62,311 nucleotides of DNA, taken from Pyrinomonadaceae bacterium. Lineage in GTDB: Bacteria > Acidobacteriota > Blastocatellia > Pyrinomonadales > Pyrinomonadaceae. Shown in pieces: positions 59,593-60,942 of the stretch. The DNA lies in NCBI GenBank assembly GCA_013003215.1, contig JABDKD010000145.1, forward strand, positions 1-62,311, read 5' to 3'. How positions within the stretch are numbered: position 1 is the first letter of the stretch; each line of letters opens with the position of its first letter. The notes below the pieces were generated by a model. The model was not told the origin of the DNA, made no database searches, and worked only from the letters and a program-made list of their open reading frames with translations. The translations under genes and the position numbers were made by a program.

Positions 59593-59667
<75 letters not shown>

Positions 59668-59696
59668 ACTTTGATCGCTTGTTTTAGCGAACTAAT

Positions 59697-59725
59697 AAGA
59701 TACCGATTTCATTCTCAACGGTCAA
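59697..59725 (-). promoter_or_regulatory. Promoter for tRNA-Val
   Basis: On the minus strand TTGACC (59725-59720) and TATCTT (59702-59697) at 17-bp spacing, about 30 nt upstream of the mature tRNA 5' end. Confidence 0.65.
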
Positions 59726-59854
59726 GCAAGAATCAGCCCCAAAAATCGCTGGTTGGCTTATAAAATTCCCCGAAAATATTGTTATTAATTCTGTTCCTTG
59801 ATAGCATCCGATAATTCAAACAAATTGGCTAACTCTTTTAGGAGGAACAGATCG

Positions 59855-60418
59855 ATGGGAAACTCTACCCCTTACACCCCCGAAGAACGCGTGTTTCCGA
59901 AGGCAAGAACTGACCAGATCGTCCAGCAACCGGCCGGCGATGAGCTTCTCATCTATGACCTGCGAAAGAATGTCGCGCACAATTTGGATGCCTCCGCGGC
60001 AGAAATTTGGAAGCTTTGCGACGGAAACCGGTCTGTGAGCGCAATCGCAGCGGGCTTAGGATCTGATCAGGGCGCAGAGGTTTCCAAAGAATTTGTGATT
60101 CGCGGCCTCGAGCAGCTTCAGAATGTTGAATTGCTCGAAGACAGCTCCTTGCGGATAGGTCGCCGAACTGTCATTGCGGGCGCTTTGCCGATGCTTGCCG
60201 CTGTCCCCGTTGTACTTACTCTTAAAGCGCCTCTCGCCGCACAGCAGCAGAGCTGTGTGCCAAACGGCGGGAACTGTGATGTTGATGCCAATTGCTGCGA
60301 ATTCTTTTGTGCCGATGGTGTTTGTATCGGCAAGGCAAAGATCAAAGTCGAAGAAACTGGAACCGCTGAGGACAGGAAAGCGGGCAAGAAAAAGACCAAA
60401 ATCTATATTGAGCGGTAA
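59855..60418 (+). CDS. PqqD-like protein fused to a Tat-like segment and six-Cys knottin-like tail
   Basis: 187 residues. The ATG at 59855 has an AGGAGGA site 8 nt upstream; the frame is open further up without one. Residues about 12-95 match the PqqD winged-helix pattern (DELLIYDLRKN, NLDASAAEIWKLCDG, and the helix with VSKEFVIRGLEQLQNVELL), a peptide-binding RRE-like fold. Then RIGRRTVIAGALPMLAAVPVV (as a motif: R103-R104 plus a hydrophobic helix) resembles a twin-arginine signal, ending in PLAAQ. The tail has cysteines 134, 141, 147, 148, 152 and 157, spacing C-x6-C-x5-CC-x3-C-x4-C, the inhibitor-cystine-knot pattern, followed by a Lys-rich end. No maturation enzymes are next to it. Function unknown. 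Confidence 0.88.
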   Translation: MGNSTPYTPEERVFPKARTDQIVQQPAGDELLIYDLRKNVAHNLDASAAEIWKLCDGNRSVSAIAAGLGSDQGAEVSKEFVIRGLEQLQNVELLEDSSLRIGRRTVIAGALPMLAAVPVVLTLKAPLAAQQQSCVPNGGNCDVDANCCEFFCADGVCIGKAKIKVEETGTAEDRKAGKKKTKIYIER

Positions 60419-60462
60419 GTCACTGACCCGGATTTTCGGTTAGTAAATCGAGATCAGCTCGG

Positions 60463-60942
60463 TTATTCGATCTTCTTTTTCTGAATTTTGCCGTGGATTT
60501 CATTGATCATCATTAGGGCGGCTGAGCTGTAAAGCTTTGTGAGTTCGTAATCGAAGATCCCCGATTTGACGCCGGGATCGGATTCAACGTATTTCTTCGC
60601 GTCTTCGACATTGTCCACGTTGAAGATGTAGAACCCGCGTTTCACCTTTTTGGGGTCATCAAATGGTCCTGCAGCGACAAGGATGCCTTTTTCCGCAAGT
60701 TTTCCCATGTTCGCGAAGTGTCCCCGGAAGATCTCGTTTCGCTTCTTCTCATCTGTAATATCTGCGGGCCCTGTTTTGAGAAGCACATATACATAACTCC
60801 GCATGCCGTAGTCGTCGGCCCCCAGGCGGGCCGCGAGTTCGGCGTCGAAGGTGTTCGTGGTCTTGTCCTCGGCCTTCTGACCAAAGGCAGGAACTGTCAG
60901 AAATAAGATACAAAACGCGATAAATGCAATAATTCGATTCAT
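60463..60942 (-). CDS. Exported YciI-like protein
   Basis: 159 residues with a signal peptide ending PAFGQ. The mature part fits the YCII ferredoxin-like fold: SYVYVLLKTGP, a GHFANMGKLAEKGILVAAGPFDD segment with the conserved His, and the YVESDPGVKSGIFDYEL element with an Asp-Pro turn. YciI proteins are usually cytosolic small enzymes or dimers of unclear role; export is unusual. Divergent from hutU. Confidence 0.86.
   Translation of the reverse strand: MNRIIAFIAFCILFLTVPAFGQKAEDKTTNTFDAELAARLGADDYGMRSYVYVLLKTGPADITDEKKRNEIFRGHFANMGKLAEKGILVAAGPFDDPKKVKRGFYIFNVDNVEDAKKYVESDPGVKSGIFDYELTKLYSSAALMMINEIHGKIQKKKIE

Follow-up and report, generated by a model that had tools for sequence, protein, structure and literature searches.

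Two described systems of ribosomally synthesized and post-translationally modified peptides (RiPPs) combine a RiPP recognition element (RRE), a kinase related to HprK and a nucleotidyltransferase. In the linear polyphosphorylated peptide (LPP) system of Paenibacillus, encoded by lpp, the kinase LppK puts several phosphates on a core serine, and the gene cluster codes in addition for an NTP transferase and a stand-alone RRE (PMC13381572). In the lasso peptide pseudomycoidin, PsmK and PsmN phosphorylate and glycosylate the product, and the nucleotidyltransferase adds a hexose to the phosphate (PMC8498205). Here we describe a related gene in a 62,311-nucleotide stretch of DNA from a Pyrinomonadaceae bacterium of the Acidobacteriota (GCA_013003215.1, contig JABDKD010000145.1, positions 1 to 62,311), which we call the window. 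The gene (59855..60418, forward strand) encodes a 187-residue protein, identified from its open reading frame, its match to PF05402 and its homologues. In this protein a PqqD-type RRE is followed by an internal twin-arginine signal, a six-cysteine tail and a basic C-terminal extension. In LPP the RRE (LppB) and the precursor (LppA) are separate proteins; in the window family the RRE is fused to the putative precursor. We favor, with a probability of roughly 0.6, the reading that the protein is a self-contained precursor that is (glyco)phosphorylated in the cytosol, exported by the twin-arginine translocation (Tat) pathway and cleaved to a disulfide-bonded mini-protein. It belongs to a large bacterial family with a fused layout that is apparently undescribed. 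The literature search covered few subscription papers or preprints, and is weak evidence of novelty; within that scope it found no paper that describes the fused layout, none that brings PqqD together with twin-arginine and cysteine-rich features, none that links HprK and PqqD to a precursor, and none naming bacterial knottins. The original prediction, made from the sequence of the window, held that such a self-recognising precursor was not a system that could be named. This is correct for the fused layout, but LPP and paeninodin-type RiPPs already have the core of kinase, RRE and NTP transferase.

The open reading frame is intact and starts with ATG. Direct reading places the strong ribosome binding site noted earlier, the Shine-Dalgarno sequence AGGAGG (59840..59845, forward strand), 9 nt 5' of the start codon. 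The three-part layout that had been proposed, a PqqD/RRE domain, an RR-containing helix and a cysteine tail, is present, and all three parts are conserved in the family. We looked for homologues without the RR pair or the cysteines and for an N-terminal fold unrelated to PqqD, and neither search overturned this layout. Residues 13-96 (59891..60142, forward strand) form the winged-helix PqqD/RRE domain. PF05402 matches residues 30-93 with 33.1 bits, above its curated cut-off of 23.4 (E 7.1e-8), and is matched by all 33 of the 33 family members compared. The AlphaFold2 model of the protein has a mean predicted local distance difference test (pLDDT) score of 84, rising above 90 across most of the PqqD domain, and contains the three strands and three helices of leader-bound RREs. 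Residues 13-101 of the model superpose on lasso B1 RREs, best on leader-bound TbiB1 (5v1v; Z 9.9, root-mean-square deviation 2.2, 86 residues) and next on 6jx3 (Z 9.7). By sequence and fold, the N-terminal domain is an RRE. It is not the true PqqD of PQQ synthesis, as it scores 23.1 bits against the cut-off of 46 for the equivalog model TIGR03859. In a 2025 survey of RREs, 21% of PF05402 proteins were larger than a discrete RRE and had no further annotation (PMC12710340). A family of fused RREs would hide among such proteins.

The cysteines of the tail are C134, C141, C147, C148, C152 and C157, and the core that they delimit (C134-C157; 60254..60325, forward strand) has exactly the spacing noted earlier, C-x6-C-x5-CC-x3-C-x4-C. 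This spacing is not a chance pattern, because it is the commonest six-cysteine spacing in the family (7 of 155 tails) and because RR, proline and cysteine residues are invariant: R103, R104, P118, P126, C141 and C152 are identical in 33 aligned homologues. The window copy keeps all six cysteines and every family-invariant residue. At least six tail cysteines are found in 151 of the 161 distinct homologues of at least 110 residues. For tail statistics we used the 155 tails from distinct homologues that have at least three cysteines. They show 138 different spacings, yet the number of cysteines is even (6, 8, 10, 12, 14 and so on) in 151/155 tails (p 1e-39) and in 134/138 distinct spacings (p 9e-35), both p-values being nominal owing to the relatedness of the tails; with one tail per locus, the count is even in 120/123. 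With spacings so different, selection is the simplest explanation of this parity. Disulfides formed outside the cytosol account for it, with paired metal sites as a less likely alternative, and the even counts thus speak for a final location of the tail beyond the cytosol. The tail is also the least conserved part of the protein. In pairwise comparisons within the two genomes with the most copies (G001 and G032), the tails average 31-32% identity, against 44-47% for the PqqD domains and 53-57% for the Tat helices.

The window tail has the six cysteines and the C-C-CC-C-C framework of inhibitor-cystine-knot (ICK) peptides. A profile built from 18 tails of the window type matched almost only ICK peptides in the PDB, with Aca toxin 1 (1.3e-6) and omega-conotoxin MVIIC (4.4e-5) at the top. 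The likeness to the knottins of venoms and plants extends to length and, in many relatives, to a CCSG motif; the window tail differs in being bacterial and made behind an RRE and a Tat signal. At the level of sequence these matches support a common shape, not common ancestry or activity, and convergence is likely. Other members have tails with C-x1-C-x5-C, long multi-cysteine tails or, in a few cases, Thr-rich tails without cysteine. Ser or Thr occurs within three residues before the first cysteine in 127/154 tails, and might be an acceptor of the modification or might simply reflect the preference of signal peptidase. The lasso rule of a C-terminal Ser as the kinase site does not carry over, Ser being the last residue of only 9 tails. 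Another type of tail that recurs, C-x1-C-x5-C-x4/5-C-x5-C with a CPST segment (L039 7629-10201, L056, L184 and L194), occurs in both Pyrinomonadaceae and Vicinamibacteria and seems far less variable than other tails. Divergent tails occur at L191 and L192 (G071) and at L095 (G001), and L192 has a kinase and a weak NTP_transf_5 match close by.

Between the RRE and the tail lies the internal Tat-type signal RIGRRTVIAGALPMLAAVPVVLTLKAPLAA (residues 100-129; 60152..60241, forward strand), in which the RR pair at residues 103-104 is followed by a hydrophobic helix and a candidate signal-peptidase site near APLAA/Q. The RR-helix module is present in 160 of the 161 homologues, the sole exception being masked by N. 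The family motif around RR, [S/T/N]-R-R-x-phi-phi-[K/R], matches the Tat consensus. S or T precedes RR in 124/160 members, K or R ends the motif in 134/160, and a strict A-x-A pattern is found in 74/160. Motif, hydrophobic stretch and A-x-A-type site are thus all present at the family level, and the earlier idea that the RR helix is a Tat-like export signal is strengthened by conservation of the full motif. TatC is encoded in the window genome. The Tat pathway suits cargo that is folded or modified prior to export.

Members of the family were found in 33 of 60 related genomes. The window genome (G000) has seven matches to the window protein, and the most copies are found in G032 (41 matches) and G001 (37 matches). 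One of the seven, on contig C98, matches in the PqqD domain alone; it is an 84-residue stand-alone paralogue without the helix and tail (L040 4476-4730). The distribution is patchy, with the family in 6 of 119 genomes of an even phylum-wide sample. Named records place it in Acidobacteriota, Gemmatimonadota, Chloroflexota, Methylomirabilota and Myxococcota, the last four represented by metagenome-assembled genomes, and it is also found in the cultured isolate Gemmatirosa kalamazoonensis KBS708, where the kinase described below adjoins the family gene. A phage origin was rejected, as there was no match in PHROGs.

Two neighbors of the family genes recur. One is a P-loop protein that matches HprK-related kinase A (TIGR04352; E 1e-13, below the cut-off of the model), and the other is an NTP_transf_5 protein (PF14907, E 1e-25). 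The order HprK-like kinase, family protein, NTP_transf_5 on one strand recurs across several phyla. The median gaps in this cassette are 59 and 53 nt, so no separate precursor fits inside it, and the family protein is its only non-enzymatic member. One or both partners are directly adjacent to 51 of 167 distinct family members. The association is much tighter at the genome level. The kinase is found in 32/33 genomes with the family and in 3/27 without it (p 1.9e-12), the single family-positive genome without a kinase being 71% complete; the transferase is found in 31/33 and 5/27, respectively. In the phylum-wide sample, 5 of the 6 family-positive genomes have a strong kinase match (p 2e-7). 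Most family-positive genomes have one kinase, and this holds even for the genomes with 37 and 41 copies. In the window genome the kinase (G000:C179:39240-40058) lies beside three family members, and the transferase (G000:C247:43953-44804) is on another contig. Given these locations and the usually single kinase per genome, orphan copies, including that of the window, probably rely on enzymes acting in trans. Profiles of the kinase and of the transferase found nothing in sequence searches of the PDB.

None of the radical SAM, YcaO, ABC or disulfide-forming genes that had been expected near the family genes proved to be a conserved partner. The radical-SAM proteins that do lie near some copies resemble MiaB- or HemN-type housekeeping enzymes by sequence, and one similar to B12-binding enzymes adjoins L043 only. 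In G018 (L195 5966-6500) a kinase lies close to a discrete PqqD-like protein, immediately after which comes a truncated radical-SAM-like open reading frame; this is perhaps a different peptide-modifying system. At L194, L069, L074 and L075, cassettes of kinase, family gene and transferase lie in or beside exopolysaccharide loci with glycosyltransferases, UDP-GlcNAc 2-epimerase and WecA-like proteins.

The cassette places the family close to LPP (PMC13381572). Both have a PqqD-fold RRE, an HprK-like kinase and an uncharacterised NTP transferase; both have a conserved N-terminal part and a highly variable C-terminus, in LPP within the precursor; and both are often located in polysaccharide loci. 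The kinase and NTP transferase genes accompany the RRE in the family cassettes and co-occur with it across genomes, the partners of the window copy being on other contigs. LPP differs in having a SipW-like signal peptidase and an MsbA-like exporter; the window family has a Tat-type signal, a cysteine-rich tail and a cassette without peptidase or transporter. Neither the SipW-like nor the MsbA-like protein is among the recurrent neighbors of the family, which is where we looked for them; they were not searched for genome-wide. As the cassette contains no separate precursor or discrete RRE, we did not file the family as LPP. Paeninodin and pseudomycoidin clusters (PMC8498205) likewise pair an HprK-like kinase and a nucleotidyltransferase with a B1-type RRE, and a lasso B1 RRE is the best structural match of the window domain, but the window family has a fused RRE and a disulfide-type tail, and its cassette is without a lasso cyclase or B2 protease. 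The NCBIfam HPr-rel-A pair (TIGR04352 kinase and TIGR04353 PqqD) is also similar. The kinase matches the former, and 16 of 33 members match the latter weakly, but scores fall well short of the curated cut-offs (for the kinase, 51 bits against 200), and TIGR04353, a model of 74 positions, covers the domain alone.

Combining these data suggests how the system could work. The PqqD-type RRE would stay in the cytosol and dock the precursor to modifying enzymes, foremost the HprK-like kinase and the NTP_transf_5 protein encoded elsewhere in the window genome. These enzymes would phosphorylate, and probably glycosylate or nucleotidylate, a Ser or Thr residue of the C-terminal tail. The internal twin-arginine signal would then send the tail to the Tat pathway for passage through the inner membrane, signal peptidase I may cut near the A-x-A-type site, and a disulfide-bonded mini-protein, with an ICK framework in the window copy, would be released. 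The self-recognising precursor of the original prediction is in this respect the best reading of a fused RRE and an exported disulfide-rich tail; that the RRE binds its own chain or recruits the kinase is a step that we infer. With substrate and RRE in one chain, the precursor would no longer depend on a gene cluster and each new copy would be recognised at once, which would explain the 37-41 dispersed copies in genomes with one kinase. More tentatively, the family may represent a new class of modified peptides, in which every precursor has its own RRE, a single kinase and a single transferase suffice for dozens of dispersed genes (as many as 41 in a genome), and the products are Tat-exported libraries of (glyco)phosphorylated disulfide mini-proteins, bacterial knottins included. 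If so, RiPP-type enzymes would be linked to Tat export and to knottin-type disulfide-rich mini-proteins, and secretion of modified mini-proteins in sets may be common among soil bacteria. With this family, the contacts of a fused RRE could be studied in a natural setting, and the cassettes in many uncultured soil phyla and in cultured G. kalamazoonensis make the idea directly testable.

Several observations weigh against the self-contained exported precursor. The RR pair sits behind the RRE domain and not at the N-terminus. Tat signals are normally N-terminal, and a folded domain of ~95 residues in front of one is unusual. The window copy is also a weaker match to the motif (G-R-R-T-V-I-A), with G instead of S/T before RR and A instead of K/R at the end. 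It has neither kinase nor transferase alongside, like 116 of the 167 family copies examined, which have no directly adjacent partner, a count weighted by the two expanded genomes, and G001, with its 37 copies, has just a weak NTP_transf_5 match. The proposed modification draws on analogy with the LPP and pseudomycoidin enzymes, and the binding partner of the RRE may not be its own chain. For the tail, the cysteine framework alone drives much of the ICK profile score, and a structure search with the modelled tail (AlphaFold2, pLDDT 74), made with the knotted 1-4, 2-5, 3-6 disulfides of ICK peptides in view, returned mostly ICK peptides, with insignificant scores (Z 2-2.7). A few relatives (L095 and L192) have Thr-rich, cysteine-free tails, so disulfides are not obligatory.

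Some of these features could also be explained by a membrane-anchored protein, with the RR helix uncleaved as a single transmembrane pass, the RRE inside and the cysteine-rich domain outside, acting as a surface or sensor protein with a cytosolic PqqD domain that the kinase serves or regulates. The conserved prolines within the helix, the bitopic layout and the location of many cassettes in polysaccharide loci, where a surface-attached protein would fit, are consistent with this. We consider it unlikely: cleavable Tat signals have this motif, the helix and the first cysteine are separated by a short stretch rich in Ala that contains A-x-A-type sites, and the tails vary far more than is usual for an anchored sensor domain. 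Still less probable is an exported accessory protein that is not itself the substrate. Here the kinase and transferase would act on another molecule, such as a cell-surface polysaccharide, with the RRE as an adaptor, and the several cassettes inside exopolysaccharide gene clusters would suit such a role. Against it, the family protein is the sole non-enzymatic member of the cassette, the gaps are too small for another precursor, known homologous enzyme sets act on peptides, and genomes with a single kinase and up to 41 diversified copies fit many substrates of one enzyme.

The window copy is an orphan in an old neighborhood of the genus, YciI - tRNA-Val - thrS. One family copy lies between YciI and tRNA-Val in the window (59593-60942). 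The same site has no family member in G002, G004 and G006, has other genes in G005, and in G001 (L216, G001:C8:375500-386500) has four intact copies, among which two 2OG-Fe(II) oxygenases are interspersed. Family copies come and go at this site. It is highly improbable that the copy in the window is a paralogue in decay or out of use, with an inherited layout and a lost function: the missing partner genes, the divergent motif residues (GRR, and HNLD replacing HCLN) and the empty site in three congeners would fit, but the open reading frame, ribosome binding site, six cysteines and invariant residues are all kept and the four copies at this site in G001 are intact. The window protein ends in a basic stretch of 30 residues after the last cysteine (residues 158-187; 60326..60415, forward strand), which alignments show to be peculiar to this copy among those examined.

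Further modifying enzymes may act on some members. The 2OG-Fe(II) oxygenases (PF13640) recur next to family genes in G001, possibly as a hydroxylation step. They lie beside genes with six-cysteine tails at three loci of this genome (L042 5101-5715 and 6286-6900; L046 5923-6537; L041 5095-5727 and 6354-6983). A PRMT/PrmA-like methyltransferase, which may have a similar role, adjoins family genes in two congeners (L055 7068-8219 and L071 6559-7713).
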